From contig NZ_CP121261.1 in assembly GCF_029637605.1 (NCBI RefSeq), forward strand, positions 496,001-560,000: a DNA stretch of 64,000 nt. The letters are read 5' to 3'. This stretch comes from Achromobacter spanius (GTDB lineage: Bacteria > Pseudomonadota > Gammaproteobacteria > Burkholderiales > Burkholderiaceae_B). Position numbers and translations under genes: made by a program. Below the pieces are notes generated by a model, which had not been told where the DNA came from, searched no databases, and saw nothing but the letters and a program-made list of their open reading frames with translations. This document shows positions 26,434-62,262 of this stretch, one piece after another (positions within the stretch are counted from its first letter, which is position 1; the number at the start of each line of letters is the position of its first letter).

Positions 26434-26660
26434 CTATATGCGTTCGATGCCGTATTTGCCTGGGGCGATGACGCCATTCGGGTCCAGGGCAGCTTTGATC
26501 GATGCGCACGCGCGCACGAACTCGGGCATGCGCTGAGCCTGGTGGAAGTCGTGGTACATGGTCGGTGCGCGGCCTACGAAGATGCCGCGATCGGCGAACA
26601 GCTTGGACAGCGAACGATAGCAGGTGTCGGCGCGGGCGGCCTCGTCGGCGTCTTGAAGAA
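26434..26660 (-). pseudogene. C-terminal remnant of a VAO/PCMH-type FAD-linked oxidase
   Basis: About 75 residues remain, reading ADEAARADTCYRSLSKLFAD and ending AALDPNGVIAPGKYGIERI. The LDPNGVIAPGK(Y)GI ending is characteristic of the vanillyl-alcohol-oxidase/p-cresol methylhydroxylase family, whose C-terminus closes the FAD cap. The other roughly 450 residues are gone. The homology begins exactly beside GGTGTCTGACTGCAA (26661-26675), a one-mismatch form of the dispersed palindrome, so the element marks the deletion edge. It lies in the GntR-led operon and was presumably once one of its redox enzymes. Confidence 0.7.
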
Positions 26661-26675
26661 GGTGTCTGACTGCAA
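26661..26675 (+). repeat. Half-copy of the dispersed GGTGTCAGACTGC element
   Basis: GGTGTCTGACTGCAA differs by one base from the left arm of the palindromes at 3481 and 47710. No matching second arm was found within about 60 bases. It abuts the surviving end of the truncated FAD-oxidase gene. Confidence 0.45.
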
Positions 26676-26798
26676 ATAAAAGCTGGGGGCTCAATATCGC
26701 GAACGCGAGATCGGCTGAATGACAACGACCCCGAACTTGTGTTTGTGAAGCCCCAGTCATCCTTTTGATTTCCCCCAGACGTTTGGAGGTGGCCGATT

Positions 26799-26824
26799 GC
26801 CCATCCCGCGGTTGCAGGATGGGC
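26799..26824 (-). terminator. Possible stem-loop after the Bug gene
   Basis: GCCCATCC (26799-26806) and GGATGGGC (26817-26824) pair perfectly around a 10-base loop, ten bases beyond the stop of the Bug gene on the minus strand. No T-run follows, so it may be an attenuating or RNA-stabilising stem, not a true terminator. Confidence 0.35.
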
Positions 26825-26834
26825 GGGGTGGTGC

Positions 26835-27860
26835 TTAGTCTATGCGGGCGCCGGAGATCTTGACGGCCTCGGCCCACTTTGCGATTTCCTTCTGCACGAA
26901 GGACTGGAACTGCTCAGGCGTCGACGGCGTAAATTCGCTGCCGGCGGCGATCATTTTTTCTTTTGCCTTCGGGTCGGACATGACTTCACGCATGTCCGAC
27001 GAGATCTTCTCCACCAGCGACTTGGGCGTGCCCTTGGGCGCGAAGAAGCCAGACCAGGGCGGCGCGGCATAGCCCGCGAAGCCCTGTTCGGCCACCGTAG
27101 GGTAGTTGGGCGCGCTTGCAAAGCGGTCGGCCGTGGTCAGCGCAATGATTTTCAGCTTCCCGCTCTTCGCATAGGCCTGCACAGCGGGCAATCCCGTAAT
27201 GCCGACCTGGATCTGGCCGCCCAACAGGTCGGTCACCATCGGGGCACTGCCGCGGTACGGAATATGCGAAAGCTCGAACTTGCCCTGGTTCTTGAGCATT
27301 TCCATGCCCAGATGGGAAGCCGTGCCGTTGCCGTCGGAACCATACGAGTAGTGCGCATCCGGCTTCTTCAACAGCGCGATGAGTTCCTGCAGGTTGTTGG
27401 CCGGCACGTCATTGTTGACGATGATGGCGTTGGGGTAGAGCGTGGCTTGCGTGACCGCCTCGAAATCCTTGATCGGGTCGTAGCGCATGTTCTTGTAGAG
27501 CGAGGTGTTGATGCCGTGCGAACCCGTGACGCCCAGCACCAGGGTGTAGCCATCGGGCGCGGCGCGCGCCACGTATTCCGAGCCGACGTTACCGCCCGCG
27601 CCCGGTTTGTTTTCGACGACGACGGGCTGGCCCCACTTCTTGGACAGGCCTTCGGCCACCAGGCGCGCGGTGATGTCGGTGGCGCCACCGGCCGGGAACG
27701 GCACCACGATAGTGACCGGGTGCGTGGGAAAGTTGTCCGTGCCTTGCGCAAAGGCAGGCGCGGCGGCCAGTCCGGCGGCGCCGACAAGGATAGCCAGCGC
27801 GCCAAGGACCTTGCGGCGCGGCATGCGCCCGTGGGTTGCTGAGGTAATCGAGTGCGTCAT
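26835..27860 (-). CDS. Bug/TctC-family periplasmic substrate-binding protein
   Basis: 341 residues. The N-terminus carries PRRKVLGALAILVGAAGLAA with cleavage near AFAQGT. The twin arginine makes Tat export possible. The core shows FPTHPVTIVVPFPAGGATD, VENKPGAGGNVGSEYVAR, LSHIPYRGSAPMVTDLLGG and a final WAEAVKISGARID. It binds a small carboxylate-like ligand in the periplasm. It lies 55 bases after an SDR gene in the operon that also carries the isocitrate-lyase-family enzyme, so its ligand is probably the substrate or an early intermediate of that pathway. No TctA/TctB genes are nearby. Confidence 0.93.
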   Translation of the reverse strand: MTHSITSATHGRMPRRKVLGALAILVGAAGLAAAPAFAQGTDNFPTHPVTIVVPFPAGGATDITARLVAEGLSKKWGQPVVVENKPGAGGNVGSEYVARAAPDGYTLVLGVTGSHGINTSLYKNMRYDPIKDFEAVTQATLYPNAIIVNNDVPANNLQELIALLKKPDAHYSYGSDGNGTASHLGMEMLKNQGKFELSHIPYRGSAPMVTDLLGGQIQVGITGLPAVQAYAKSGKLKIIALTTADRFASAPNYPTVAEQGFAGYAAPPWSGFFAPKGTPKSLVEKISSDMREVMSDPKAKEKMIAAGSEFTPSTPEQFQSFVQKEIAKWAEAVKISGARID

Positions 27861-27915
27861 GTTTCAAGCCCCTTGTTATGTGGTGTATGTACTGCGTGAA
27901 GAAACGGCGGCCGCG

Positions 27916-28689
27916 CTATTGCGCGGTGTATCCGCCGTCGGCACGAATGTCCGTGCCCGTGATGAACGAGGCAGCCTCGCTGATCAGAAAAACCGTGGTC
28001 TGCGCGACCTCTTCGGCGGTGCCGAGTCGCCCGACCGGATACTTGGTGGCCAATGCGGCATTGGCCTCCTGCGCGCTGCCGTAACGATCCACCAGCCGGC
28101 TGGTCAAGACCGCGCCGGGCGACAGGCTCAAGGCGCGGATGCCGTCGGCCGCGTGGTCCACGGCGATGGCGCGCGCCAGCGCGATCAGGCCAGCCTTGCT
28201 TGCGCTGTAGGCGCCACGCCCCGGCGCGGCGACGCTTCCTAATTGCGAAGCAATGTTCAGCACGACGCCGCCGCCAGCGCGCGCCATGTGCGCAATCGCC
28301 CACTTGCTCATCAGCCATGCACCGGTCAGGTTCACGTCCAGCGCTAGCCGCCATTGTTCCGGCGTCAGGTCAGCGACCTTCACGCCTGGCGTGACCGTGG
28401 CGGCGTTGTTCACCAACTTGTCGATGGAGCCCCAGTGCGTGGCGACCTGTTCCACGGCCGACCGGGAGGCGCTGACGTCCGCGACGTCGCAGCTAAGGGC
28501 CAAGATTCGGGATGGCGCGACGGCAAACGTCCGGCAGCATTGCGCCAGCATGTCCGCGTCCCGATCCAATAGCGCCACGCGGGCGCCCGCATCCAGGCAA
28601 TGCTTGGCGATAGCCTGTCCTAATCCGCCGGCAGCGCCGGTCACAATCACAATCTTCCCGTCCAACACGGGTGCGCTCGTCGTTGTCAT
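27916..28689 (-). CDS. Short-chain dehydrogenase/reductase
   Basis: 257 residues from the ATG at 28689. Cofactor motif TGAAGGLGQAIAKH near residue 18, NNAATV instead of the usual NNAG, and catalytic residues in LNIASQLGS and YSASKAGLIALARAI. It ends in FITGTDIRADGGYTAQ, the normal C-terminus for classical SDRs. The start overlaps the stop of the next upstream SDR gene by four bases (ATGA), so the two are translationally coupled. Two tandem SDRs suggest successive or stereospecific oxidation of a hydroxy-acid intermediate. The substrate is unknown. Confidence 0.92.
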   Translation of the reverse strand: MTTTSAPVLDGKIVIVTGAAGGLGQAIAKHCLDAGARVALLDRDADMLAQCCRTFAVAPSRILALSCDVADVSASRSAVEQVATHWGSIDKLVNNAATVTPGVKVADLTPEQWRLALDVNLTGAWLMSKWAIAHMARAGGGVVLNIASQLGSVAAPGRGAYSASKAGLIALARAIAVDHAADGIRALSLSPGAVLTSRLVDRYGSAQEANAALATKYPVGRLGTAEEVAQTTVFLISEAASFITGTDIRADGGYTAQ

Positions 28690-29405
28690 GGCGTCATTGC
28701 CCCCAACGAGGCGCCGCCGCACACATAGAGCGTCTGCCCCGTGATGGCTCCCGCCTCGTCGCTCAGAAAGAAGGCGATGGTCGCGGCGACTTCGCGCGCG
28801 TCTATCAGGCGGCCAAGCGGCAGCTCGACGCTCGGCGCGGCCCCGCGTTTCGGATCGTTCAGCATGGGAGTGTCGACCGCGCCGGGCGCAATCACGTTGA
28901 CCGTGATGCCCCGGCCGACGAGTTCCGCGGCCAAGCTTCGCGCCAAGCCAATCTGCGCCGACTTGGTGGCGGCATACGCCAAGCGGTGCGCGCGACCCAG
29001 CACGGCGCGGCTGGACACCAGCACAATGCGGCCGCGGCCGTCGGGTAGTTGTGGCGCCAAGGCCCTGACCAGCGCCATCGGCGCGGCGCCATGCAGGCGC
29101 CAGAGCAACTCTGCGTCTTCCGGCCGCGTATCCAGTGCACCGCCGGTGCGCACCAGGCCGGCGCAGTGCACCAGCGCGGTTGGGTCGCAACTGTCCAAGC
29201 CGGCACACAAGGCGTGCAACGCGGCGGGGTCGGACAAGTCGCAAACCAGATGGCGGTACTGTGCGTGGCTCTTGACGGCGGCGGGCGCGATATCCACGCC
29301 GGTTACCCACCAGCCGGCCGCCAGCAGTCGCTCGGTCAGCGCCAGTCCAATGCCGGATGCCGCACCTGTCAGGACGCAATGCGCCGACACGTTACGCTCG
29401 TTCAT
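28686..29405 (-). CDS. Short-chain dehydrogenase/reductase
   Basis: 239 residues. Cofactor motif TGAASGIGLALTERLL lies near residue 13. An acidic Asp at the end of strand 2 (VTGVDIAP) suggests NAD preference. Catalytic Ser-Tyr-Lys are in VLVSSRAVLG and YAATKSAQIGLA, and VNVIAPGAVDTPM follows. It sits 12 bases after the isocitrate-lyase-family gene and overlaps the following SDR. It is more compact than its neighbour and clearly a different paralogue. Confidence 0.92.
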   Translation of the reverse strand: MNERNVSAHCVLTGAASGIGLALTERLLAAGWWVTGVDIAPAAVKSHAQYRHLVCDLSDPAALHALCAGLDSCDPTALVHCAGLVRTGGALDTRPEDAELLWRLHGAAPMALVRALAPQLPDGRGRIVLVSSRAVLGRAHRLAYAATKSAQIGLARSLAAELVGRGITVNVIAPGAVDTPMLNDPKRGAAPSVELPLGRLIDAREVAATIAFFLSDEAGAITGQTLYVCGGASLGAMTP

Positions 29406-29417
29406 GGCAGTGCTCGG

Positions 29418-30314
29418 TCAGGTGTCCAGCGTCGTCAGGCGCTTTTCCATGGCGCGCATCTGCTCGTAGCCCATCAGTTGCATGATGTCTTCGATGCCCG
29501 CCACCAGATCGGGACGGTCGACCGGTTCGCCCGTGGCGATCACGCCTTGCATGACCTGCAGCGCTTGGCGCATGCCGTAGATGGCGGCGGCGGGCAGCAT
29601 GCGGGGCAGGCTGATCCGCTTGACGCCAATTTCCTTCAGGCGCGGCAGCGGAATCAGCGGCGTGGTGGGACGGTTGCGGATGCCGAAGCCCATGTTGATG
29701 CTGACCGGGATGCCCGCGGCGTCCACCAGTCGCTTGATATCGTCTTCAGTGCGCACAGCATCGGGAAAAAGCATGTCCGCGCCTGCGCGGGCGTATGCGC
29801 GCGCACGCTTGACCGCGCCTTCAATGCCCTCGATGGCGAGCGAGTCCGTGCGGGCGATGATGACGAAATCGTCGTCGCGCCGCGCCAGGCATGCGGCCTC
29901 GATCTTCTTGACCATCTCGGCTTCGCTGACGACGTCTTTGCCGGGCATGTGGCCGCAGCGCTTGGGGCTGACCTGGTCTTCAAGATTGATCCCCGCGACG
30001 CCGGCTTCCTCGAACATCTGCACGGTATGGTAGACATTGACCGGATTGCCGTAGCCGGTGTCTGCGTCGGCAGTGAGCGGGATGGAGACGGACCTTGCCA
30101 GGTGGCGGCAGTGGGTGACGTTTTCGGCCAGGCCCATTACGCCGATATCGGCGATGCCCAATAGCGCGTTCGACACGGCCGCGCCGCTGGTGCAGGCGGT
30201 CTTGAAACCAGCGGCTTCAACCAGGCGGACGCTGTATCCATCGTAAACACCGGGGGACACGAGGAAGGGTTCGTTCTTCAGCAATTGCCGGAACTGGTTG
30301 CGCGGGTTGTTCAT
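29418..30314 (-). CDS. Isocitrate lyase/PEP mutase family C-C lyase
   Basis: 298 residues from the ATG at 30314, which has GGAG eight bases ahead. A second ATG five codons upstream lacks a site. The metal and catalytic loops are intact: SPGVYDGYSVRL, DADTGYGNPVNV, INLEDQVSPKRCGHMPGK and IIARTDS. The KRCGH loop with its cysteine marks lyases such as methylisocitrate lyase and 2,3-dimethylmalate lyase, not PEP mutases. Such enzymes split a 2-hydroxy diacid to pyruvate or glyoxylate plus a monoacid. First structural gene after the GntR regulator. A second member stands at 61402 in the other cluster. Confidence 0.9.
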   Translation of the reverse strand: MNNPRNQFRQLLKNEPFLVSPGVYDGYSVRLVEAAGFKTACTSGAAVSNALLGIADIGVMGLAENVTHCRHLARSVSIPLTADADTGYGNPVNVYHTVQMFEEAGVAGINLEDQVSPKRCGHMPGKDVVSEAEMVKKIEAACLARRDDDFVIIARTDSLAIEGIEGAVKRARAYARAGADMLFPDAVRTEDDIKRLVDAAGIPVSINMGFGIRNRPTTPLIPLPRLKEIGVKRISLPRMLPAAAIYGMRQALQVMQGVIATGEPVDRPDLVAGIEDIMQLMGYEQMRAMEKRLTTLDT

Positions 30315-30335
30315 GTCGTGCTGCTCCAAAGGGCG

Positions 30336-31058
30336 TTATGCGGCCGAGACGGGGTGCCCGGCGATGCCGGACGCCCCTTCTGCCAGGTGTTCAAACAGGT
30401 GTTGCGCTGCGCGTTCGATGTGGGAGCGCATGAGCGACTCCGCCAGCTCAGCATCGCGCGTACGAATGGCGCGCAAGATCTGCCAGTGTTCGGCGTAGGC
30501 GTCGTCCTTGCGTTCAAGCACGGTGCCGGAGTGCCGGCGATAGACGCGCAACAGGTGATAGAGGTCGCCGCACAGGGCGTTGATGATGCGGGTGTTGCCG
30601 CTGGCCAGCACGATGCGCTCGTGGAAGTCGAAGACACGGGGCGCCGGTGCGCCGCCGTTGGCGGCCTCCAGGTGGCGCTGGCGGTCCTGCTCCAGCTCGA
30701 CCAGCAACTGCGCGACTTCCTCGTCGCTCATGCGGCGAGTGGCCAAATTGCAGGCCACGCCTTCCAGCGCCATCCGCATTTGGAAGAGTTCCAGCGCGGA
30801 CTCCGCCGATAGCGTCACGACGCGCGCCTTGATGTAGGGCTCGCGTGTGACCAGCTGGATGCCTTGAAGGCGGCGAACCGCTTCGCGAACCGGGCCGCGG
30901 CTGACGCCGAATTCCTGCGCCAGTGCAACCTCATTAATGACGCTGCCCGGCGCCAGCCTGCCTTGGTAGATCGCATCCAGCACGCGGTCGAACACCACGT
31001 CGGCCAGTGGGCCGGTGGCGTCTTCCTTGGTGACAGTGGAGGGCGTGGAAATGTCCAT
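30336..31058 (-). CDS. GntR-family regulator, FadR subfamily (FCD domain)
   Basis: 240 residues. The winged helix is seen in VFDRVLDAIYQGRLAPGSVI, ALAQEFGVSRGPVREAVRRL and EPYIKARVV. The all-helical FCD ligand domain follows, with LFQMRMALEGVACNLA and metal-binding histidines in FHERIVLASGN, HWQILRAI and SHIERAAQHL. FCD regulators usually repress catabolic operons until a carboxylate effector binds. It heads the minus-strand operon 21 bases before the lyase gene and is divergent from the aconitase-like operon, so it probably controls both. Candidate operators overlap both promoters. Confidence 0.94.
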   Translation of the reverse strand: MDISTPSTVTKEDATGPLADVVFDRVLDAIYQGRLAPGSVINEVALAQEFGVSRGPVREAVRRLQGIQLVTREPYIKARVVTLSAESALELFQMRMALEGVACNLATRRMSDEEVAQLLVELEQDRQRHLEAANGGAPAPRVFDFHERIVLASGNTRIINALCGDLYHLLRVYRRHSGTVLERKDDAYAEHWQILRAIRTRDAELAESLMRSHIERAAQHLFEHLAEGASGIAGHPVSAA

Positions 31059-31098
31059 AGTGTTAACAGCCTATCAAAGGGGTCTAAAAAGTGTCAAC
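31057..31098 (-). promoter_or_regulatory. Candidate promoter/operator of the gntR-lyase operon
   Basis: On the minus strand TTGACA (31097-31092) lies in GTTGACACT, the same 9-mer that forms the -35 of the opposite promoter. TGTTAACA (31061-31068) is a perfect palindrome next to the regulator start codon, within ATAGTGTTAACAGCCTAT. No good -10 was found. Confidence 0.4.
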
Positions 31099-31285
31099 TC
31101 TTTTGCGATCTGGTTTATTGCGTCGCAGTTTGAGGTTGCCAGAACTTTCCATAGCTTTCAGCGGAGATTACGCCTATTTTAAAGGGTTTTCCCTGATATA
31201 AAAGACAGGTGGCTATCTATCAACACTTTCAAGGAGCTTGTTCGGTCTTGTTTTTGGGGAAGGTAGGCATGCCTTGTTTATCTCT

Positions 31286-31301
31286 ATAGTGTTGACACTA
31301 T
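31286..31301 (+). promoter_or_regulatory. Operator/-35 of the aconitase-hydantoinase operon
   Basis: ATAGTGT-TG-ACACTAT is a perfect inverted repeat with 7-bp arms. It contains a consensus -35 TTGACA (31292-31297). A weak -10 TAAGAT (31316-31321) lies 18 bases on and overlaps the annotated start codon, so either the true start is the ATG at 31356 or another -10 is used. A repressor bound here would block RNA polymerase. Confidence 0.55.
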
Positions 31302-31319
31302 TGTTTTTAAGGTCGTAAG

Positions 31320-34049
31320 ATGGTCTCAGTTGAGATTCTCCCTATTCCCGCTGCCATGATCCAGTCTTTCTCCTGTCGCGGCAGGGCGCTGCACTATGCG
31401 GACCTGTCCGCCGCCGCCCAAGCCGAAGGTCGCGACATCCAGGCGTATCCCTATGTCATCCGCGTGCTGCTGGAGAACCTCCTGCGGCACCAAGCCTGGG
31501 GCGCGGCCGTATCCGAAGCGGAAATCGGCAGGCTTTGGGATTGGGGGCGGCACCCTGGGGCCGATCTGCCGCTGCATGTAGCTCGGGTGATCCTGCCGGA
31601 CTCCAGCGGGCTGCCTGTGCTGCAGGACCTGGCGGCCTTGCGCGACGCGGTGGCCCAGGCAGGCGGGGACGCCGCGCAAGTCGACACGCAAATTCCCGTG
31701 GATCTGATCGTGGATCATTCGCTTCAGGTCGACTATTGGGGCGACGTCGGAGCGGTGCAGCGCAACCTGCGCCGCGAATTCGAACGCAACGACGAACGCT
31801 ACCGATTCTTGAAGTGGGCGCAGCAAGCCTACAAGGGATTGCGCGTCATCACGCCCGGCATCGGGATCATCCATCAGGTCAACCTGGAATACTTGGCACC
31901 GGTAGTGGCGTGCCAGACAAGGCCGGACGGCGAGTGGGCCTACCCGGATTTCGTGATCGGCGGCGATTCCCATACGCCCATGGTCAACGCGCTTGGCGTG
32001 CTGGGCTGGGGAGTGGGCGGCATCGACGCCGAGGCGGCCCTGCTGGGCCATGCCTACACCTTCCCGATCCCGGAGGTCGTGGGGGTGCGGTTGCACGGCG
32101 CCATTGAAGCGCCGGCCCTCACCACGGATGCCGCGCTGTTGGTTACGCAGCAACTTCGCATCGCGGGCGTGGTAGGCAGCATGGTCGAATTCTTCGGCCC
32201 GGCGGTGGCGGGGCTCAGTGTGCCCGAGCGCGCCACGATCGCCAACATGGCACCGGAATACGGCGCCACTTGCGGGTTCTTTCCGATCGACGCGCGCACG
32301 CTGGACTACGCACGCATGACCGGGCGCGACGAAGAGCAACTGGCGCTGATCGAAGCCTACGCGCGCGTCAACCTGCTATGGCGCGACGCTACGCAAGACG
32401 CGCCGGCCTATAGCCGGGTGATCGATATCGACCTGTCGGCGGCGCGTCCCAGCTTGGCGGGTCCGCGCCGTCCGCAGGACCGCATGGATGTTGCGGATGT
32501 CGCCGCGGACTTCCGCCGCCGCCTGGGCGCGCCGCAGTCGGAAGGCGGGTTCGATGTGGACATGGCCGCCGCCCTGCCGGTGGTCCGCGACGTCGTCGGT
32601 CATGGCTCGGTGGCGCTGGCGGCGATCACCTCTTGCACCAACACGTCCAACCCCAGCGTGATGCTGGCGGCCGGCCTGATCGCGCAGAAAGCGCTGGCGC
32701 GTGGCCTGACGCCGCCCGCATGGGTCAAGCGATCGCTGGCGCCCGGCTCGCGCGCCGTCACTCGCTATCTGGAGTCCGCGGGGTTGCTGACGGCCCTGCA
32801 AGCCCAGGGTTTTTACGTCATCGGTTACGGCTGCACCACTTGCGGCGGTAAATCAGGCCCGCTGGATTCGGGGGTGGCGGACGCCATCGTCGAAGGTAGT
32901 CTGGTCGCCACCGCCGTGCTGTCGGGCAATCGGAATTTCGAAGGACGCATCCACAAACTGCTGCGCGCCAATTACATCGGGTCGCCCGCGATGGTGGTGC
33001 TGTATGCGCTGGCGGGCCGCATCGACGTGGACTTCGAGCGCGAGCCGCTGGGGCCGGGCGCGGACGGCGAGCCAGTCTATCTGCGCGATGTCTGGCCCCG
33101 CCAAGACGAGATCGCAGCCTTGTTGCCGCTTGCTTCGGACCCGGCGCTGTTTGCCGAAGTCTATGACCCAGCCAGCCTGGACAGCGTGATCTGGCGAGAC
33201 CTGGCCGCGCCAGTGGGCTTGCGCTTTCCTTGGGATCCGGATTCTCAATACCTGGTCGAACCGCCGTTCTTCAAGACCGAACCCGGCCGCGACGCGTTGG
33301 CCGACTTGGCGGCTGGCCTGGCGCACGGGCGCGTGCTGGCGGCGTTTGGCGATTCCCTGACCACAGACCACATTTCGCCCAGCGGTGAGATCCCGGCCGA
33401 CACGCCCGCGGGCATGTACCTGATCGGCAAGGGTGTGGCGCCGCGCGACTTCAACACCTATGTGGCCCGCCGTTGCAACCATCACGTCATGACGCGCGCC
33501 ACCTTCGCCAACATCCGCATCAAGAACGCCCTGACACCGGGCGTGGAAGGCGGCGTCACTCGCCACTACCCAAGCGGCAGGCTCATGCCGATTGTCGATG
33601 CCGCGACGGCCTACCGCGAGGCGGGCGAGGCCTGCGTCATCCTGGGCGGCAAGGACTACGGCATGGGCAGCAGCCGCGATTGGGCCGCGAAAGGCTCGGC
33701 ACTGCTGGGCGTGCGCGCGGTGATCGCGGAGTCGTTCGAGCGCATTCATCGCGCCAATCTGGTGGGTATGGGCGTGCTACCGCTGGCGTTTGCGCCCGGC
33801 CAGGGCTGGCGCCAGTTGGGGCTGACCGGCGCGGAGACGCTGCGCTTGGAGAATGTGGCCGATGGCGTGTTGAAGGGGGAACCCATTGACGTGACCGCCG
33901 AGGACGGGGATCGCCGAGTGCGCTTCCAGGCCTATGCCCAGGTGCTTACGCACGCCGAACGCAAGCTCATGGCGGAAGGCGGAATCCCCGCCAGCGTCCT
34001 CAATGCTTTCTTGACCGGCACTACGGCCGCCGACGCGGCCCATTGCTGA
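31320..34049 (+). CDS. AcnA-type aconitase-family hydratase, divergent active site
   Basis: 909 residues, full AcnA length, with all four aconitase domains. The iron-sulfur cysteines are Cys439 (ITSCTNTSNPS), Cys505 and Cys508 (GYGCTTCGGKSGPL). DSHTPMVNALGVLGWGVGGI and MGSSRDWAAKG are conserved. Several normally invariant stretches differ: AcnA proteins usually have CTTCIGNSGP, DFTGVP and RRGN with RGTFAN, where this one has CTTCGGKSGP, DSSGLP and RRCN with RATFAN. It is probably a specialised hydratase and not the housekeeping aconitase. Start is AAGG-supported at 31320, but 31356 is possible. It is followed 30 bases later by a dihydropyrimidinase-family gene. Confidence 0.88.
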   Translation: MVSVEILPIPAAMIQSFSCRGRALHYADLSAAAQAEGRDIQAYPYVIRVLLENLLRHQAWGAAVSEAEIGRLWDWGRHPGADLPLHVARVILPDSSGLPVLQDLAALRDAVAQAGGDAAQVDTQIPVDLIVDHSLQVDYWGDVGAVQRNLRREFERNDERYRFLKWAQQAYKGLRVITPGIGIIHQVNLEYLAPVVACQTRPDGEWAYPDFVIGGDSHTPMVNALGVLGWGVGGIDAEAALLGHAYTFPIPEVVGVRLHGAIEAPALTTDAALLVTQQLRIAGVVGSMVEFFGPAVAGLSVPERATIANMAPEYGATCGFFPIDARTLDYARMTGRDEEQLALIEAYARVNLLWRDATQDAPAYSRVIDIDLSAARPSLAGPRRPQDRMDVADVAADFRRRLGAPQSEGGFDVDMAAALPVVRDVVGHGSVALAAITSCTNTSNPSVMLAAGLIAQKALARGLTPPAWVKRSLAPGSRAVTRYLESAGLLTALQAQGFYVIGYGCTTCGGKSGPLDSGVADAIVEGSLVATAVLSGNRNFEGRIHKLLRANYIGSPAMVVLYALAGRIDVDFEREPLGPGADGEPVYLRDVWPRQDEIAALLPLASDPALFAEVYDPASLDSVIWRDLAAPVGLRFPWDPDSQYLVEPPFFKTEPGRDALADLAAGLAHGRVLAAFGDSLTTDHISPSGEIPADTPAGMYLIGKGVAPRDFNTYVARRCNHHVMTRATFANIRIKNALTPGVEGGVTRHYPSGRLMPIVDAATAYREAGEACVILGGKDYGMGSSRDWAAKGSALLGVRAVIAESFERIHRANLVGMGVLPLAFAPGQGWRQLGLTGAETLRLENVADGVLKGEPIDVTAEDGDRRVRFQAYAQVLTHAERKLMAEGGIPASVLNAFLTGTTAADAAHC

Positions 34050-34079
34050 CAACACGCATCATTCGGGAAACACGACATC

Positions 34080-35441: not shown

Positions 35442-35474
35442 ACTGAATCCAACTTCTTTCCGACGGACACCACT

Positions 35475-36203: not shown

Positions 36204-36225
36204 GCCGGAGCAGGCTGCTGACGCC

Positions 36226-52198: not shown

Positions 52199-52942
<744 letters not shown>

Positions 52943-52946
<4 letters not shown>

Positions 52947-54975: not shown

Positions 54976-55520
54976 CGGACCGGATTGCAACACCCCCCGT
55001 CGCAACCGAAGCCGCCGCCACGCACGGCACATCCACCCATCGCGTCTGGCGCGTGGGGGCCGACATCGACACCGACGCGCTGGCGCCAGGTGCCTACATG
55101 AAGTTCGGCATCGACGAGATTGCGCGGCATTGCCTGCAACGGGTCCGCCCGGAATTCGCGGGGCAGGTGCAGCCGGGCGACGTCCTGGTGGCTGGGCCGA
55201 ATTTCGGTATCGGCTCGTCGCGCGAGCAGGCGGCCTCGGCGCTGGTGCGCCTGGGCGTGGCCGCGGTGATCGCGCCATCCTTCAACGGCCTGTACTTTCG
55301 CAACGCCTTCAATGTCGGCCTGCTGCTCTTGACCTGCCCGCAGGCGGACGCGTTGGCGGAAGGCGAGCGCATCACCCTGGACCCCGAGTCTGGTCACATC
55401 GGCCGCGCGGCCGGCGTCGACCCGTCTGAACTGCATTGCGAAACCGTACCCGCCTTCCTGATGGACATGGTGCGGGCCGGCGGACTGCTGAATCTGCTGA
55501 AACAGCGTCAAACCTCTTAG
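54972..55520 (+). CDS. LeuD-like aconitase-family hydratase, small subunit
   Basis: 182 residues, the swivel domain partner of the preceding LeuC-like subunit. Marks are VGADIDTDALAPGAYMKFGI, GPNFGIGSSREQAASALVRL and APSFNGLYFRNAFNVGLLLL. The GxGSSREQA loop carries the catalytic serine and arginine. LeuD usually has GSSREHA, and the Gln form is seen in homoaconitase/dimethylmaleate-hydratase-type small subunits. The extra N-terminal 25 residues are low-complexity. Confidence 0.9.
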   Translation: MTDRIATPPVATEAAATHGTSTHRVWRVGADIDTDALAPGAYMKFGIDEIARHCLQRVRPEFAGQVQPGDVLVAGPNFGIGSSREQAASALVRLGVAAVIAPSFNGLYFRNAFNVGLLLLTCPQADALAEGERITLDPESGHIGRAAGVDPSELHCETVPAFLMDMVRAGGLLNLLKQRQTS

Positions 55521-55530: not shown

Positions 55531-57210
55531 ATGCTTGATCCCGTCACCCTGGCGGTCCTGAAGGGCCGTCTGGAACAGATTGCCGATGAGATGGACGCGA
55601 CGCTGTACCGCAGCGCGTTCAACCCCATCATTGCCGAGGCCCACGACGCCTGCCACGGCATGTACGACGCGGCCACCGGCGCCACGCTGATCCAGGGCAA
55701 GTCCGGCCTGCCCGTGTTCGTGGGCGCGATGGCCTTTGCCGTGAAGGCGGCGGCCAAGGTGGCCGCCGAGCGCGGTGGCATGGTGGATGGCGATGTCTGG
55801 CTCTTTAACGACCCCTACGAAGGCGGCACGCACGCGAATGACTTCAAGCTGGTGCGCCCGGTGTTCCGGGGCGCAAAGCTGTTCTGCTTTCTGGCGTCGG
55901 CCGCGCACTGGCACGACGTGGGTGGCGCGGTGCCGGGCAACTACAACCCGGCCGCCACCGAATGCTGGCAGGAAGCGGTGCAGATTCCGCCCGTGCGCAT
56001 CCTGCGCGCAGGCGTGCTGGACCAGGACGTGCTGGCCATCCTGAAAGCCAACACGCGTCTGCCCGACAGCCTGTGGGGCGACCTGAACGGCCAACTGGCC
56101 GCGCTGGAACTGGGTGCGCGCCGGCTGGATGGCCTGCTGGACGAATACGGCGACGACACGGTGCTGGAATCGCTGGATACCTTGCGCGAGCGCGCGCGCC
56201 GCTTGATGCGCGACCACATCGCGCGGCTGCCCGACGGCGAGTACGCGTTTGAAGACATGCTGGACAACGACGGCGTGCGCGACGTGGCGCTGCGCATCGC
56301 GCTGAAGCTGACGATCGCCGGCGACCGGCTGACCTTGGACTTCAACGGCACCTCGCCCGCCTGCGCGGGACCGGTGAATATTTCCCGCGCCACCGCCATT
56401 GCGGCCTGCTACGTGGCCTTGAAGCACCTGTTTCCCGACGTGCCGGCCAACGCGGGCGTGCTGGACGCGGTGGACGTGGTGCTGCCGGACGGCCTGGTGA
56501 TTTCGGCCGACCGCCCGCGCCCCGTGGGCGGCTATACCGAAACCATCCTGCGCATGATCGACGTGATTTTCTGCGCGATGGCGCAGGCGGCACCCCAGCG
56601 CGCCATGGCGCAGGCTTACGGCACGATCAACGCCTTGTCCATCGCGGGCTATCGCAGCGATGCGGCGCGCAAGGGGCAGCGCTGGGTGATGTTCAGCTTC
56701 TTTGGCGGCGGCCACGGCGGGCATTCCGACGGCGACGGGCTCAGCCACGGCAACGCGCCGATCTCCACCGCTACCATTCCGCCGCTGGAAATCCTGGAAG
56801 CCGCCTATCCCGTGCGCTTCACGCAGTGGGCGCTGCGCCCGGATTCGGCGGGCGCCGGCACGCATCGCGGCGGCCTGGGCGCCATCTACGAGATTGAATT
56901 GCTGGAAGACAGCGCCGAAGCCTTCATCTTCGGCGAACGCGGCCGCAGCGCGCCCAAGGGCATTGCGGGCGGCGGTGAGGCCGCCTTGAACGTGTTCCGC
57001 TATCAGCAGGACGGGCAGTGGCGTACCCCGCCCATGAGCTCCAAGATGCTGGGCATTCAATTGCAGCGCGGTGACCGCGTGCGCCTGGAAACACCGGGCG
57101 GGGGCGGTTATGGCGACCCGGCCGGCCGTGCGCCGGAAGCGCGTGAGCACGACCGCAAGATGGGCTATGTGGGCGATATCGCCAACAACAAGAAGGAGCA
57201 GTTGGCATGA
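55531..57210 (+). CDS. Hydantoinase B/oxoprolinase-family subunit
   Basis: 559 residues with AGGAAG upstream of the start. Family marks: DPVTLAVLKGRLEQIADEMD, HDACHGMYDAATGATLIQGK, DGDVWLFNDPYEGGTHANDF, and near the end SAGAGTHRGGLGAIYEIELL and ETPGGGGYGDPAGR. HyuB proteins work with HyuA to hydrolyse a cyclic amide (hydantoin, 5-oxoproline, caprolactam) with ATP, or carboxylate ketones in the acetone/acetophenone carboxylase branch. Here HyuB precedes HyuA and overlaps it by four bases. The neighbours favour ring hydrolysis. Confidence 0.92.
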   Translation: MLDPVTLAVLKGRLEQIADEMDATLYRSAFNPIIAEAHDACHGMYDAATGATLIQGKSGLPVFVGAMAFAVKAAAKVAAERGGMVDGDVWLFNDPYEGGTHANDFKLVRPVFRGAKLFCFLASAAHWHDVGGAVPGNYNPAATECWQEAVQIPPVRILRAGVLDQDVLAILKANTRLPDSLWGDLNGQLAALELGARRLDGLLDEYGDDTVLESLDTLRERARRLMRDHIARLPDGEYAFEDMLDNDGVRDVALRIALKLTIAGDRLTLDFNGTSPACAGPVNISRATAIAACYVALKHLFPDVPANAGVLDAVDVVLPDGLVISADRPRPVGGYTETILRMIDVIFCAMAQAAPQRAMAQAYGTINALSIAGYRSDAARKGQRWVMFSFFGGGHGGHSDGDGLSHGNAPISTATIPPLEILEAAYPVRFTQWALRPDSAGAGTHRGGLGAIYEIELLEDSAEAFIFGERGRSAPKGIAGGGEAALNVFRYQQDGQWRTPPMSSKMLGIQLQRGDRVRLETPGGGGYGDPAGRAPEAREHDRKMGYVGDIANNKKEQLA

Positions 57211-59300
57211 GCGCGGCGGGAAAGAACACGGCAGAAAAGGGCACGACAGGAACGAGCACGAAACAAGGACTCGTCGTCGGCGTCGACGTGGGCGGCACGT
57301 TCACGGACCTGTTCGTGCTGGACGAGGCAGCCGGCACGGCGCGCGTGGTCAAGGTGCCGTCCACGCGCGGCGAAGAGGCGCGCGGCTTCATGAACGGCAT
57401 CGCGCGCGTGGCCGACGGCGCAAGCGCCATTGCCACCATCGTTCACGGCACCACCGTGGGCACCAACGCGCTGCTGGAACGCAAGGTGGCCCGCACCGGC
57501 ATCATCACAACGGCGGGCTTTCGGGATGTGCTGGAAATGCGCCGGCGCGATCGTCCCCAGACCTGGGGCCTGCGCGGCAACTACGAACCGGTCGTGCCAC
57601 GTGATCTGCGCCTGGAAGTGGCCGAGCGCGTGCTGGCCGACGGCACGGTGCATACGCCCGTGGACCTGGATCAGGTGGAAGCGGCGGCGCGCGCGCTGCT
57701 GGCGCAGGGTTGCGAGGCCGTGTGCGTGTTCTTCGTCAACGCCTACGCCAACCCGGTGAACGAAGCCCAGGCCGCGGCCCGCGTGCGCGCCATCTGGCCG
57801 AACGGCAACGTTACGGCAGCCACCGAGGTGCTGCCAGAAATCCGTGAATTTGAACGCTGCTCGACGGCGGTGCTGAACGCCGCCTTGCAGCCCGTGGTGG
57901 GCAGCTACCTGACGCGCCTGGAATCTGACCTGAAGCAGAACGGCTTTGACGGCGAGCTGCTGGTGGTGCAAAGCAACGGTGGTGTGATGTCGCGCCAGAC
58001 CGCGTGCGACGTGCCGGTGCGCACCGCGCTGTCCGGCCCGGCGGCGGGCGTGATCGCCTGCGCCGCCATTGCGCGCGCTTCCGGCTTTCCCAATGTGGTG
58101 ACGGGCGACATGGGCGGCACCTCGTTCGACGTGTCCTTGGTGGCGGGCGGCGAAGCGTCGCTGTCGGCGCAGACTTCCATCGACTTCGGCATGGTGGTGC
58201 GCGCCCCGATGATCCAGATTGAAACCATCGGCGCGGGCGGCGGCTCGATTGCCAGTGTGGATGCGGGCGGCCTGTTGCAAGTGGGCCCGGAATCCGCCGG
58301 CAGCATTCCCGGCCCGGCCTGCTATGGCCGTGGCAATACCCGGCCCACCGTCACCGACGCCAACGTGCTGCTGGGCCGCATTTCCGCCGAGCGCCCGCTG
58401 GGCGGCGGGCTGCTGGCCACCATGAATGTGGACCTGGCGCGCGCGGCCATCGACGAGCATGTGGCGCGGCCGCTGGGGCTAAGCGTGCATGCGGCGGCCG
58501 AGGCCATCCTGACCGTGGCCAACGCCAAGATGGCGGGCGCGATCCGCGTGGTGTCGATTGAACGCGGGCACGACCCGCGCAAGTTCGCCTACATGCCGTT
58601 CGGCGGCGGCGGGGCGCTGCACGTGTGCGCCATGATGAACGAAGTGGACGCGGCCCACGGCATCGTGCCGCGCTACCCGGGCGTGACGTCCGCGCTGGGC
58701 TGCGTCATGGCCGACATGCGGCACGACGGCGTGCAGACGCTGAACACCGCGCTGGATGCGCTGGATGCCGCCGACCTGCTGGCGCGCATCGACGGCCTGG
58801 CGCTGGCCTGCCAGGAACGGCTGGATTCTGCGGGCGTGGCCTTCGAAGGCATTCGCGAAAGCATCGAGCTGGACATGCTGTACGTGGGCCAAAGCCATAC
58901 CGTGCGCGTGGAACTCACGCGCGCCGAGCTGGACCGCGCGGGCATCGCCGCCGCCTTTGACCGCGCTTACCGCGCGTCCTTCGGCCGCAGTCTGGACGGC
59001 ATTGCCGTGCGCATCCTGAACCTGCGCTATGCGCGCATCGGCCAACGCCCCAAGTTTGATCTGGCGCTGCTGGCGCCCACCTGCCAGGACATGCCCGCCA
59101 CGCTGGGCACACAAGCGGTGTTTCACGCGGGCCAGTGGCACGACGCCGTGCGCTACGCGCGCCTGGACCTGCCCGTGGGGGCGGAGGTGGCCGGTCCTGC
59201 CATTCTTGAACAGCCCGACACCACCATCTGGATCGAACCCGGCTTTGCCGGCCGCGTCGACGCGCTGGGCAATCTGCTGATCACGCGCCAGACCGCCTAG
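57207..59300 (+). CDS. Hydantoinase A/oxoprolinase-family ATP-dependent subunit
   Basis: 697 residues. An ASKHA-type ATPase: phosphate-1 loop VVGVDVGGTFTDLFVLDEA near residue 25-43, GTTVGTNALLERKVARTGI, phosphate-2 GDMGGTSFDVSLVAGG and adenosine-type TIGAGGGSIASVDAGG. It phosphorylates the amide oxygen of the ring so HyuB can complete hydrolysis. It starts inside the end of HyuB and is followed by an isochorismatase homologue. The N-terminal 24 residues are a Gly/Thr/Lys-rich extension. Confidence 0.93.
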   Translation: MSAAGKNTAEKGTTGTSTKQGLVVGVDVGGTFTDLFVLDEAAGTARVVKVPSTRGEEARGFMNGIARVADGASAIATIVHGTTVGTNALLERKVARTGIITTAGFRDVLEMRRRDRPQTWGLRGNYEPVVPRDLRLEVAERVLADGTVHTPVDLDQVEAAARALLAQGCEAVCVFFVNAYANPVNEAQAAARVRAIWPNGNVTAATEVLPEIREFERCSTAVLNAALQPVVGSYLTRLESDLKQNGFDGELLVVQSNGGVMSRQTACDVPVRTALSGPAAGVIACAAIARASGFPNVVTGDMGGTSFDVSLVAGGEASLSAQTSIDFGMVVRAPMIQIETIGAGGGSIASVDAGGLLQVGPESAGSIPGPACYGRGNTRPTVTDANVLLGRISAERPLGGGLLATMNVDLARAAIDEHVARPLGLSVHAAAEAILTVANAKMAGAIRVVSIERGHDPRKFAYMPFGGGGALHVCAMMNEVDAAHGIVPRYPGVTSALGCVMADMRHDGVQTLNTALDALDAADLLARIDGLALACQERLDSAGVAFEGIRESIELDMLYVGQSHTVRVELTRAELDRAGIAAAFDRAYRASFGRSLDGIAVRILNLRYARIGQRPKFDLALLAPTCQDMPATLGTQAVFHAGQWHDAVRYARLDLPVGAEVAGPAILEQPDTTIWIEPGFAGRVDALGNLLITRQTA

Positions 59301-59309
59301 GAGACCGCC

Positions 59310-59918
59310 ATGCACGTCTTGGACCCTCGTACCACCGCCTTGCTCATCATCGATCTGCAAAATGATTTTCTGGCGCCGGGCGGCGCCTATGACCGGGGCG
59401 GCGCGGTCAGCCGCGAGGCGCGCGCCTTGCCTGCCCGCGTGGCGCCGCTTGCCCGCGCGCTCAAGGCGCAAGGCGGCCTGGTCGCCGCCAGCCTGTTTAC
59501 CTTGTGGCCCGATGCGCATGGCGAGCCCATGATTTCGCCGCACCTGAAGCAACTGCGCCCGTTCCTGGCAAAAGGCGATTTCGCGGCCGGCTCGCACGGC
59601 CAGGCGAATGTGGCCGAGCTGGACGGGCTGGTGGATGTGTCGGTCTGGAAGGTGGCGTATTCGGCCTTCTTCAATACGCAACTGGATTGGGTGCTGCGGC
59701 GCGCTGGCGTATCCAGCGTGGTCATCGCCGGCATCGTCACCAACGGCGGCGTGGCGAGCACCGCGCGCGATGCCCACATGCGCGACTATCACGTGACGGT
59801 GCTGGCCGACGGCTGCGCCGCGTCCACGCCCGCCATGCACGATGCCGCGCTGGCGGACCTGCGCACGGTGGCGGACGTGATCACGTGCGCGGACTTCGCG
59901 GGCAGGCTGGCGTCGTGA
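59310..59918 (+). CDS. Isochorismatase-superfamily protein lacking the catalytic cysteine
   Basis: 202 residues with AGGAG before the start. The fold is clear and two triad residues remain: Asp15 (LLIIDLQNDFL) and Lys114 (VWKVAYSAFFNT). The nucleophile position, normally Cys in TNVCVESTARDA, reads TNGGVASTARDA, so residue 147 is Gly. Amidase chemistry of the usual covalent kind should not work. PhzD-type isochorismatases also lack the cysteine and hydrolyse vinyl ethers. It may therefore do a non-covalent hydrolysis or have a structural role. The stop overlaps the GTG of the next gene. Confidence 0.88.
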   Translation: MHVLDPRTTALLIIDLQNDFLAPGGAYDRGGAVSREARALPARVAPLARALKAQGGLVAASLFTLWPDAHGEPMISPHLKQLRPFLAKGDFAAGSHGQANVAELDGLVDVSVWKVAYSAFFNTQLDWVLRRAGVSSVVIAGIVTNGGVASTARDAHMRDYHVTVLADGCAASTPAMHDAALADLRTVADVITCADFAGRLAS

Positions 59919-61405
59919 GCGCGCCTGTCGTCAGGTGGGGCAGTCCCGGTAGCACCCCCGTCAGCACGCCGGACGCAGACATGATGCAGGTGCCGGTGCT
60001 GATCATCGGCGCTGGCGCCTGCGGGCTGACCGCCGCGCTGCGGCTGGCGCAGGCCGGCATTGAAACCGTATTGATCGAGCGCGACGCCGCGCCCAGCGGC
60101 TCGTCGGCGTTGTCGTCGGGATTCATACCGGCGGCGGGGTCGGCTGTGCAGCGCGCGGCCGGCATCGATGACAGCGCGGAGCGTTTCGCCGCCGACATCC
60201 AGGCCAAGGCTCATGGCACGGCCGCGCCGCATCTGGTCGCGGCGTACACGGACGCGGCGGCTCCGGCCATGGATATGTTGGCGCGGCACGGCTTGGTGTT
60301 CGACGTGTTGGACGGCTTTCTGTATCCCGGCCACAGCGCGCGTCGCATGCACGCCTTGCCGGAACGCACGGGCGTGGCCTTGGTGACCGCGCTGGAACGC
60401 GCCGCCACGGGCGCGGGCGCGCACCTGTTGACGCGCGCGTTGGCCCGAGAAATCTGGGTTGAAGAATCCACTGGGCACGACGGCGGCCGCATCACCGCCG
60501 TGGGTTGCGAACGACCTGACGGATCCGTCGACGTGATCGGCTGCCAGGTGCTGATCCTGGCCTGCAACGGATTCGGCGGCAACGCGTCCATGGTGGCCGA
60601 ACACTTACCCGCCATGCGCGAGGCCGTCTACGGCGGCCACGTGGGCAATGACGGTAGCGCCATCGAATGGGGCAAGGCCTTGGGCGCGCGCCTGGCCGAC
60701 CTGGGCGCCTATCAGGGTCACGGGTCCTGGGCCACACCGCAAGGCGCGCTGATCTCCTGGGCCGTCATGATGGACGGCGGAGTGCAGATCAATCGCGACG
60801 GCCTGCGCTTTCATGACGAGACACAGGGCTATTCCGAAGCCGCCGTCCACGTCCTGGCGCAGCCGGGCGGGGTGGCCTGGAACGTATTTGACGAACGCAC
60901 GCTGGCATTGGCGCGCGGCTTCCCGGATTTTGTCGCGGCCGAAGCGGGCCATGCAGTGAAGACCTGCGCCGACGTGCCGGCGCTGGCCGCGTTGATCGGC
61001 TGCGATCCGGATGTGTTGCAACAGACCTTGCAAGGCATCGGCCCGGATGCGGTCGATTCCCAAGGCAATGACCCCCATGGCACAGCCCTCCATCGCACAG
61101 ACCCCCATGGCCGCCGCTTTGAACGCACCCTGCAAGCGCCATATCACGCCGTCAAGGTGACCGGCGCGCTGTTCCATACCCAAGGCGGCCTGGACATCGA
61201 TGCGCAGTGCCGCGTCTTGAATCGCGATGGGCGGGCCTTGCCCAATCTGCTGGCTGCCGGAGGCGCCGCGCGCGGCGTGTCGGGCAACGACGTGTCCGGC
61301 TATCTGTCCGGCAATGGACTGCTTAGCGCGGTGGCGGGCGGCTATATCGCCGCAGCGACCGCCGCCGCAATGCTGGGACACGAGCTTGATCAGGAATCAC
61401 CATGA
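59915..61405 (+). CDS. FAD-dependent oxidoreductase (fumarate reductase/ketosteroid dehydrogenase flavoprotein type)
   Basis: 496 residues from the GTG at 59915, which overlaps the previous stop. An ATG about 20 codons later is possible. FAD-binding VPVLIIGAGACGLTAALRLA is followed by the acidic IERDAAPSGSSALSSGFIPA, the pattern of soluble succinate dehydrogenase/fumarate reductase flavoproteins, and C-terminal GVSGNDVSGYLSGNGLLSAV binds the flavin. There is no signal peptide. It probably oxidises or reduces a C-C double bond of a pathway acid. The longer open frame upstream is only an overlap with the preceding gene. Confidence 0.88.
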   Translation: MSAPVVRWGSPGSTPVSTPDADMMQVPVLIIGAGACGLTAALRLAQAGIETVLIERDAAPSGSSALSSGFIPAAGSAVQRAAGIDDSAERFAADIQAKAHGTAAPHLVAAYTDAAAPAMDMLARHGLVFDVLDGFLYPGHSARRMHALPERTGVALVTALERAATGAGAHLLTRALAREIWVEESTGHDGGRITAVGCERPDGSVDVIGCQVLILACNGFGGNASMVAEHLPAMREAVYGGHVGNDGSAIEWGKALGARLADLGAYQGHGSWATPQGALISWAVMMDGGVQINRDGLRFHDETQGYSEAAVHVLAQPGGVAWNVFDERTLALARGFPDFVAAEAGHAVKTCADVPALAALIGCDPDVLQQTLQGIGPDAVDSQGNDPHGTALHRTDPHGRRFERTLQAPYHAVKVTGALFHTQGGLDIDAQCRVLNRDGRALPNLLAAGGAARGVSGNDVSGYLSGNGLLSAVAGGYIAAATAAAMLGHELDQESP

Positions 61406-62262
61406 AGCAAACACTAAAAACGCAGTTGGCCACGGGAGCCATCTTGGCGCCCGGCATCTACGACGCCCTGTCGGCGCTCATCGCCGAGCAGGCGGGCTTT
61501 GACGCGCTGTACCTGTCGGGCGCGTCCATCGCCTACACGCGGCTGGGGCGCTCGGACATCGGCCTGACCACGTATTCGGAAGTGGAGGACACGCTGGCGC
61601 GGATCACCGAGCGCGTGGCCACGCCGGTCATCGTGGACGCCGACACGGGCTTTGGCAATGCGCTGAACACGCAACGCACGGTGCGTGGCTTTGAACGCGC
61701 CGGCGCCGCGATGATCCAGTTGGAAGACCAGACCTTTCCCAAGCGCTGCGGCCACCTGGATGGCAAGACGGTGATCCCCGCCTCCGAAATGTGCGGCAAG
61801 CTGCGCGCCGCCGTGGATGCGCGGGTGGATGCGTCCACGTTGATCCTGGCGCGCACCGATGCGGTGGCCGTCGACGGCCTGGAAGCCGCCCTGGACCGCG
61901 CCGAAGCCTATCTGGAAGCGGGCGCGGACGCGCTATTCATCGAAGCGCTGCGCACGCCCGAACAGATGCAGGCGGCCTGCGCGCGCTTTGCCGCCCGCGT
62001 GCCGCTGCTGGCCAATATGGTGGAAGGCGGCAAGACCCCCGTGCAAAGCGCCGACGCCTTGACCGCATTGGGCTTTCGCATTGTTATCTTTCCCGGCGGC
62101 ACGGCCCGCGCCGTGGCGCACACCTTGCAGGGCTATTACGGCAGCCTGCGCCAACACGGCACAACCGCGCCGTGGCAACAGCAGATGCTGGATTTCGACG
62201 GTTTGAATACGGTGATCGGCACGCCGGAACTGCTGGAGCAAGGGCGGCGGTATGAGGGGTAG
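61402..62262 (+). CDS. Isocitrate lyase/PEP mutase family C-C lyase
   Basis: 286 residues overlapping the flavoprotein stop. Intact catalytic elements: LAPGIYDALSALIAEQAGFD, VDADTGFGNALNTQRTVRGF, IQLEDQTFPKRCGHLDGK and LILARTDAVAVDGLE. The KRCGH loop marks a lyase such as methylisocitrate or dimethylmalate lyase, or an oxaloacetate decarboxylase. It closes the operon. With the LeuCD-like hydratase upstream it could cleave the hydrated product to pyruvate and a carboxylic acid. It is a paralogue of the enzyme at 29418. Confidence 0.9.
   Translation: MKQTLKTQLATGAILAPGIYDALSALIAEQAGFDALYLSGASIAYTRLGRSDIGLTTYSEVEDTLARITERVATPVIVDADTGFGNALNTQRTVRGFERAGAAMIQLEDQTFPKRCGHLDGKTVIPASEMCGKLRAAVDARVDASTLILARTDAVAVDGLEAALDRAEAYLEAGADALFIEALRTPEQMQAACARFAARVPLLANMVEGGKTPVQSADALTALGFRIVIFPGGTARAVAHTLQGYYGSLRQHGTTAPWQQQMLDFDGLNTVIGTPELLEQGRRYEG

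Follow-up and report, generated by a model that had tools for sequence, protein, structure and literature searches.

The 64,000-nt window analyzed here (bases 496001–560000 of contig NZ_CP121261.1) comes from Achromobacter spanius, whose genome is assembled as one contig of 6.47 Mb. It carries two gene clusters, A (26.8–37.2 kb) and B (48.3–62.3 kb), each encoding a regulator, an uptake protein and an enzyme of a cyclic-amidase family together with an isochorismatase-fold amidase, an aconitase-superfamily hydratase and a lyase of the phosphoenolpyruvate (PEP)-mutase/isocitrate-lyase (ICL) family. Families were assigned by Pfam and NCBIfam profile scans of the window proteins, and these bore out the enzyme families named in the original prediction for this DNA, apart from one doubtful fragment. 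We favor, with moderate confidence, the reading that both clusters serve the catabolism of small cyclic amides, most likely substituted cyclic imides, and share a plan and a probable order of steps.

The forward-strand half of cluster A begins with a hydratase of AcnA architecture that forms a distinct subfamily in Pfam/NCBIfam scans and an orthologue alignment (31320..34049). It is followed by a cyclic amidase of the dihydropyrimidinase/allantoinase type (34080..35441; PF01979), whose best solved match is the L-hydantoinase 1gkr (E 4.5e-62) and whose nearest named matches are from Achromobacter, at up to 98% identity. The metal ligands typical of the dihydropyrimidinase/hydantoinase/allantoinase group (HxH, Lys, His, His, Asp) are present and conserved across a 56-sequence alignment that includes the window. 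The protein scores under the equivalog cut-offs for allantoinase (270.3 vs 357.85 bits) and D-hydantoinase (266 vs 393.25), and no NCBIfam model reaches its cut-off among the matches listed (25 of 58 models). Next comes an isochorismatase-fold amidase (35475..36203; PF00857) nearest to N-carbamoylsarcosine amidohydrolase (26st, E 4.5e-33; 3ot4/3uao, E 1.2e-16, the latter structure being the maleamate amidohydrolase NicF). Its Asp-Lys-Cys residues, the triad of N-carbamoylsarcosine amidase and NicF, are conserved in 55 aligned sequences. The last gene encodes a CobW-family GTPase (36226..37218; PF02492, PF07683), perhaps a metal chaperone for the amidohydrolase.

On the reverse strand, cluster A encodes a GntR/FCD regulator (30336..31058; PF07729, PF00392), the PEP-mutase/ICL-family lyase (29418..30314; PF13714, 184.1 bits), a short-chain dehydrogenase/reductase (SDR; 28686..29405; PF13561/PF00106), a second SDR-type protein known from its translation and gene call, with no profile scan (27916..28689), and a Bug/TctC-type periplasmic receptor (26835..27860; PF03401, 246.6 bits). 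The original prediction also counted an FAD-oxidase remnant in the cluster. This 86-aa fragment, resembling the C-terminus of an FAD-linked oxidase (26434..26694, reverse strand), stays below threshold (PF02913, 19.7 bits against a cut-off of 21.2), and since the alignment with relatives begins only at 26796, beyond the fragment, we place it in the flank. Cluster A sits in a variable slot (26430–38833): between the same flanking SDR gene (25646–26374) and TetR region, the congener G702 has about 4.2 kb with no nucleotide match. No tRNA gene was found in the window.

Cluster B lies wholly on the forward strand. A GntR/UTRA regulator (48324..49121; PF07702, PF00392) and a Liv-type periplasmic binding protein (49140..50345; PF13458, 168.9 bits) precede an ABC importer of two permeases and two ATPases (50355–51227, 51230–52198, 52191–52946 and 52943–53653), assigned from gene calls, position and colinear relatives with no Pfam scan, and with counterparts in L120, L125, L185, L187, L188 and L191. 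The hydratase consists of a LeuC/DmdA-like large subunit that retains its Fe-S cysteines (53719..54975, open frame from 53599; PF00330, NF001614 above cut-off) and a LeuD/DmdB-like small subunit (54972..55520, longer frame 54489–55520; TIGR02087, 152.9 bits, cut-off 108.95). Ring opening would fall to HyuB (hydantoinase B/oxoprolinase, 55531..57210; PF02538, 567.5 bits) and HyuA (57207..59300; PF01968, PF05378, PF19278), that is, Hydantoinase_B and Hydantoinase_A as adjoining subunits, which remain under the 1000-bit cut-offs of the caprolactamase CapAB models (NF050156/NF050157; 519.4 and 289.3 bits). The set is completed by a RutB-like isochorismatase-fold amidase (59310..59918; PF00857, 127.7 bits; RutB 8bll, E 1.9e-17), an FAD_binding_2 flavoprotein of the TcuA/flavocytochrome-c type (59981..61405; PF00890, 168 bits for the longer frame) that falls below the cut-offs of the flavocytochrome-c and TcuA models, and a second PEP-mutase/ICL-family lyase (61402..62262; PF13714, 154.7 bits).

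To place cluster A among its relatives, we retained the best 80 of 157 stretches matched by its amidohydrolase, which correspond to 78 loci: 56 A-type loci (L012–L067, 50–98% identity) and 22 distant ones (L068–L089, 30–35%). Because the gene caller took antisense frames in some GC-rich loci, counts are based on tblastn; they use identity thresholds of our own choosing and make visible only homologues of the reference proteins. Among the hosts of the A-type loci are Achromobacter, Bordetella, other Alcaligenaceae, Bosea, Gluconacetobacter, Azospirillum, Nitratireductor and Roseovarius. In them we found the lyase 50 times out of 56, the AcnA-like hydratase 52, the amidase 55 and the GntR regulator 52 times; CobW (36/56), the first SDR (32/56) and the second (19/56) are less constant. 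At least one of lyase, hydratase and amidase is missing from nine loci, six of which are cut by contig ends (L031, L039, L043, L053, L059, L065) and three of which are full-length (L045, L046, L066). None of the 22 distant loci has a cluster A gene at the same thresholds, and at a looser limit of E 1e-15 they still contain no hydratase and no lyase; L083 then shows an amidase-like gene (37%) with an SDR (35%), and L085 a Bug receptor (39%). As seven of these 22 loci are shorter than 12 kb, their length in part limits this control. The amidase is 71–98% identical among the A-type loci and better conserved than the ring opener, suggesting that its substrate is demanding.

Around this core the A-type loci vary. 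A TcuA/flavocytochrome-c-like flavoprotein, of the family seen in cluster B, occurs in 22 of the 56 and is absent from cluster A of the window. Other additions are an FAD monooxygenase (12/56), an AMDase-like protein (11/56), an aldehyde dehydrogenase (10/56), a PrpD-like pair (6/56) and a luciferase-type monooxygenase (5/56). Transport genes alternate between Bug, TctAB-like and other ABC types, the latter two judged by eye. The monooxygenase set of some loci may convert an aromatic N-heterocycle to the imide. A maleate-isomerase step in A was considered and dropped, as the AMDase/maleate-isomerase-like neighbor lacks the expected cysteines.

For cluster B, the search for homologues of the LeuC-like subunit covered 300 genomes from the same order and 398 from the same phylum, and the context sample comprises the window and 21 relatives with 52–92% LeuC identity (G562, a 927-bp hit at a contig end, was left out). 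LeuD accompanies the large subunit in 22/22 loci and the lyase in 15/22, window included; of the 15 loci that have both, 11 have the lyase directly beside LeuD, and in the window four genes separate them. The complete B set, with gene order partly changed, recurs in L120 of the same genus, in L185 of the same order, and in L187 and L188, which share only the phylum.

The ring opener is the exchangeable part of this set. Twelve of the 22 B-type loci contain a cyclic amidase, which belongs to one of three folds. HyuAB forms the front end in seven (the window, L120, L125, L129, L185, L187 and L188), and four others (L126, L131, L132, L133) have a PuuE-fold pair and an amidase like that acting on N-carbamoylsarcosine (NCS) within about 9 kb of the hydratase. 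According to one study, the fungal cyclic imidase HxnM and the cyclic imide hydrolase of Pseudomonas putida are related to this PuuE-fold group (PMC9304392). In the remaining locus, L191, GntR is followed by the binding protein, two permeases, two ATPases, LeuC, LeuD, an amidohydrolase, the flavoprotein and the lyase. This is the window's cluster B except that one dihydropyrimidinase-family gene stands in place of HyuB-HyuA-isochorismatase, at one locus in one genome. This amidohydrolase, of the dihydropyrimidinase/allantoinase group, is 28–29% identical to that of cluster A and by eye retains HxH, Lys, His, His and Asp. With three unrelated cyclic-amidase folds near one hydratase, the upstream step is hard to explain except as the opening of a cyclic amide. 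The data show gene content, conservation, ring-opener exchange and conserved catalytic motifs, from which the reactions, their order and the substrates are inferred. In L132 (5248–9061), and likewise in L131 and L133, we also observed a glutaryl-CoA-dehydrogenase-like gene as the first of a co-directional run that also contains the amidase and a pair of PuuE-fold genes and is divergent from LeuC.

The hydratase of cluster A reaches 1061.1 bits with the equivalog model TIGR01341 (AcnA), above the cut-off of 945, and would be annotated as an aconitase. It keeps the cluster cysteines and the arginines aligned with IRP1 R536, R541 and R780. Next to the second CxxC cysteine, IRP1 and the AcnA paralogue of this genome (L002, which we take to be the housekeeping enzyme) read Ile-Gly-Asn. 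The cluster A orthologues differ at the two outer residues: position 509, Ile in L002, is small in 51/51 (Gly 38, Ser 10, Ala 3), and position 511, Asn in L002, is Lys in 51/51 aligned. The Ile equivalent to position 509 corresponds to I425 of the mitochondrial enzyme, which lines the substrate. The simplest reading of these residues is that the substrate would be larger than cis-aconitate or differently charged. We abandoned the mapping of IRP1 R699, the arginine of the gamma-carboxylate; the position is Lys in the window protein, variable in orthologues and Asn in L002. In the cluster B hydratase, a Lys in the LeuD loop is merely suggestive. Both lyases score below the PrpB model TIGR02317 (cut-off 354.4 bits), at 239.0 for A and 291.9 for B. 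The residue after CGH is Met in the A lyase (at least 97% of 50 aligned) and Leu in the B lyase (15/15 aligned, window included); it is Arg in the three PrpB chains compared.

From the chemistry of the families, which alone supports the order of steps, the following scheme can be proposed. The substrate would be taken up by the Bug receptor (A) or the Liv-type ABC importer (B), and its ring opened by the metal-dependent amidohydrolase (A) or HyuAB (B) to a half-amide (or an N-carbamoyl acid), from which the isochorismatase-fold cysteine amidase would free ammonia. Where the acid is saturated, the TcuA-like flavoprotein of B and of the A-type loci that have one could desaturate a succinate-type acid. 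The Fe-S hydratase, of AcnA architecture in A and of DmdAB/LeuCD type in B, would hydrate the maleate-type double bond, and the PEP-mutase/ICL-family lyase would cleave the 2-hydroxyacid by a retro-aldol reaction into a 2-oxoacid and a carboxylate. In B the last two steps would follow the logic of dimethylmaleate hydratase and dimethylmalate lyase, giving pyruvate if the carbinol carbon carries a methyl; substituted succinimides and maleimides are candidate substrates. In A, the AcnA-type enzyme and TctC-type receptor would fit a ring bearing an extra carboxylate, with carboxylated imides, for instance citrazinate and hematinic acid, as candidates. The common plan of ring opening, deamidation, hydration and C-C cleavage had been put forward in the original prediction and gains comparative support here, above all from L191 and the loci with PuuE-fold genes; pyruvate is a putative product, the ring may be a hydantoin or lactam instead of an imide, and the two clusters need not share a substrate.

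Several observations weigh against this scheme. It makes no use of the monooxygenase, AMDase-like and aldehyde dehydrogenase genes of some A-type loci. Among 13 regions around NCS-amidase homologues (38–51%; covering 14 of 22 further amidase hits), none has the A hydratase and one has a lyase-family gene (L173, with a PuuE-fold gene). A cyclic amidase is present in four of these regions (L168, L170, L171, L173). The amidase alone thus predicts little, and its family also serves other routes. At L191, none of three reference amidases finds a match in the 19 kb read, which leaves deamidation there unexplained. The kinds of cyclic amidase sought were not detected in 10/22 B-type loci (L121–L124, L127, a 5.5-kb contig, L128, L130, L186, L189 and L190; at L123 an Amidohydro_3 protein and a CobW-like gene were left uncounted as a front end). 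A close lyase is missing from seven of the 22, and in the genomes of six of these, including those of L129, L130 and L189, the best lyase homologues reach at most 46% identity. Finally, five more distant LeuC loci (L134–L138, 39–43%) include a lyase-family gene in three and a cyclic amidase in none.

Among the amidase-homologue regions, L170 and L171 combine an A-type amidohydrolase, amidase and CobW (40–41%) with Liv-type ABC and Bug genes; L170 has a B-type flavoprotein (45%), L171 a PuuE-fold gene, and the hydratase is missing from the 19 kb read at either locus. In L168 (3693–10110), an NCS-type amidase (46%) and a beta-keto acid cleavage enzyme have HyuA and HyuB homologues (32% and 27%) nearby, possibly another cyclic-amide route.

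The ten B-type loci without a front end indicate that hydratase and lyase, in the logic of DmdAB and dimethylmalate lyase (Dml), are a module of their own that can serve other substrates. They also suggest a rival explanation, in which this pair, acting on substituted maleates and malates, is the real pathway and cluster B is an alkylmaleate route with an optional amide front end. All ten loci have the hydratase and seven of them also the lyase, the lyase and LeuD are direct neighbors in most loci that have both, and the minimal set is often flanked by GntR and Bug homologues. The front-end genes nevertheless form one tight run in the window, L120, L185, L187 and L188, kept across classes, and in cluster A the front end hardly varies, as the amidase count attests; we therefore regard this explanation as rather unlikely.

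We give still less credence to hydantoins or dihydropyrimidine-like compounds as the rings, with N-carbamoyl hydrolysis yielding an amino acid and the hydratase and lyase acting on a downstream acid. The closest solved relatives in cluster A, an L-hydantoinase and N-carbamoylsarcosine amidohydrolase, and the RutB-like amidase of B would suit such a route. It would however require removal of the amine before hydration, and no transaminase or amine lyase family is among the recurrent neighbors; the hydantoinase equivalog cut-offs are also not reached.

A role of cluster A in the degradation of N-heteroaromatics, through an imide intermediate such as citrazinate (the cyclic imide of aconitate) to aconitamide, aconitate and the tricarboxylic acid (TCA)/glyoxylate route, would agree with the AcnA architecture, the TctC-type receptor, the TctAB-like genes of some relatives (by eye) and the extra monooxygenase, AMDase-like and aldehyde dehydrogenase genes, yet appears improbable, as the invariant small residue 509 and Lys511 argue against plain cis-aconitate, no pyridine-type dehydrogenase was noticed (no dedicated search was made), and literature searches, limited to open-licence papers and so weak as evidence of absence, turned up nothing on a citrazinate or isonicotinate route with these genes.

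Within the cyclic-imide reading we considered one specific source of substrates: the maleimides from oxidized haem, bilins and chlorophyll, with hematinic acid (carboxyethyl-methyl-maleimide) for A and ethyl- or vinyl-methylmaleimide for B. Hematinic acid would then yield pyruvate and glutarate, and ethylmethylmaleimide either pyruvate and butyrate or 2-oxobutyrate and propionate. Hints in this direction are the TctC-type receptor and altered hydratase pocket of A, the dicarboxylate-type hydratase of B, and the glutaryl-CoA-dehydrogenase-like gene (one match per genome at E 1e-60), which accompanies the amidase and PuuE-fold genes in three B relatives and, in a fourth, is found about 1 kb away from the B operon. 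A glutaryl-CoA dehydrogenase motif was matched by L132 and not by L191, the two tested. Against such an origin, that gene scores 193–195 bits against an NCBI model cut-off of 470, three of the four relatives have no close B-type lyase, and the homologue in the window's genome is 2.3 Mb away. We consider a haem, bilin or chlorophyll origin a long shot.

Parts of the proposed pathway resemble known systems. The cyclic-imide route of Blastobacter and P. putida (imidase plus half-amidase) feeds succinate or fumarate to the TCA cycle. It shares with the plan proposed for the window clusters a ring-opening step, which some strains perform with a dihydropyrimidinase-family enzyme, followed by amide hydrolysis to a dicarboxylate, and in both A and B a cyclic amidase is encoded with a half-amidase-type enzyme. 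In the window clusters the route would continue through a hydratase and a C-C lyase of its own, and among the loci studied here the first step could also be taken by HyuAB or by PuuE-fold enzymes. The DmdAB hydratase and dimethylmalate lyase belong to the nicotinate fermentation of Eubacterium barkeri, where, as in cluster B, a two-subunit Fe-S hydratase is encoded with a PEP-mutase/ICL-family lyase. That system involves methyleneglutarate chemistry in an anaerobe, whereas here we find cyclic-amidase front ends in proteobacteria, and B is likened to it by family. The methylcitrate cycle (AcnD/PrpD, PrpB) likewise has a hydratase followed by an ICL-family lyase, but the window lyases fall below the PrpB cut-off, amidases are present, and no citrate synthase was recognized in the window clusters. 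The A amidase has its fold in common with N-carbamoylsarcosine amidohydrolase and NicF and is nearer to the former; the A type is tightly conserved with its own core. In the fungal nicotinate pathway, HxnM opens a cyclic imide and HxnN deamidates the half-amide, with hydroxyglutarate as the end product (PMC9304392). The likeness lies in these two steps, and HxnM is related to the PuuE-type fold of four B-type loci; it is unrelated to both window ring openers, and the available part of that paper names no aconitase-type hydratase or lyase. The combination of cyclic amidase, amidase, hydratase and lyase was not found in the literature (open-licence papers, a weak absence). We are dealing with ordinary enzyme families in what looks like a new, modular combination.

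The original prediction had called the two clusters non-homologous, with one plan solved twice using mostly different proteins. This applies to the ring openers alone, which are unrelated; most steps use the same superfamilies. Both lyases are PF13714 proteins, and the A lyase as query matches the lyases of B-type relatives at 38–42%; the hydratases belong to one superfamily with different architectures, and both amidases are PF00857. Across relatives, the families co-occur in the A core (50–55 of 56 loci), and 12 of 22 B-type loci have a front end. In the window's genome, with 9 aconitase-superfamily loci (11 matches, two genes being split), 5 PEP-mutase-family and 11 isochorismatase matches, the three families come together within about 9 kb at A and B only, against a rough expectation of 0.005 triples; the A and B triples exceed chance. 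The closeness of A and B is local and not conserved: they are more than 2 Mb apart in all four congeners with both on one contig (G674, G676, G686, G708). At the thresholds used, 43 genomes of the genus include 14 with A, 26 with B and 13 with both. The corresponding association (B in 13/14 with A vs 13/29 without; one-sided Fisher p 0.0024) is confounded by phylogeny and was not used.

If the cyclic-amide reading is true, proteins that annotation pipelines would label hydantoinase, AcnA, 3-isopropylmalate dehydratase, isochorismatase or methylisocitrate lyase in Achromobacter, Bordetella, Bosea and others belong to cyclic-amide catabolism. The occupation of a single pathway position by three unrelated folds would then offer a clean natural example of non-orthologous replacement. 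Imides are frequent in drugs and agrochemicals, and a ready source of enzymes that open their rings would be at hand; an orphan aconitase subfamily would gain concrete candidate substrates, and a hitherto unassigned food pathway would become testable.

Elsewhere in the window, the stretch 19342–25166 encodes a carbon-nitrogen hydrolase, an ABC importer, an aminotransferase and RraA-like genes, possibly a further amide-related set. Between the two clusters lies a 2340-aa autotransporter frame (40660–47682) with eight passenger-repeat matches, whose counterparts in two congeners are 1739 and 1516 aa long by rough gene calls. A 263-aa frame (2728–3519) and a 562-aa GGDEF/PAS protein (14363–16051) have nearly identical N-terminal residues, and these matching starts suggest a partial duplication.

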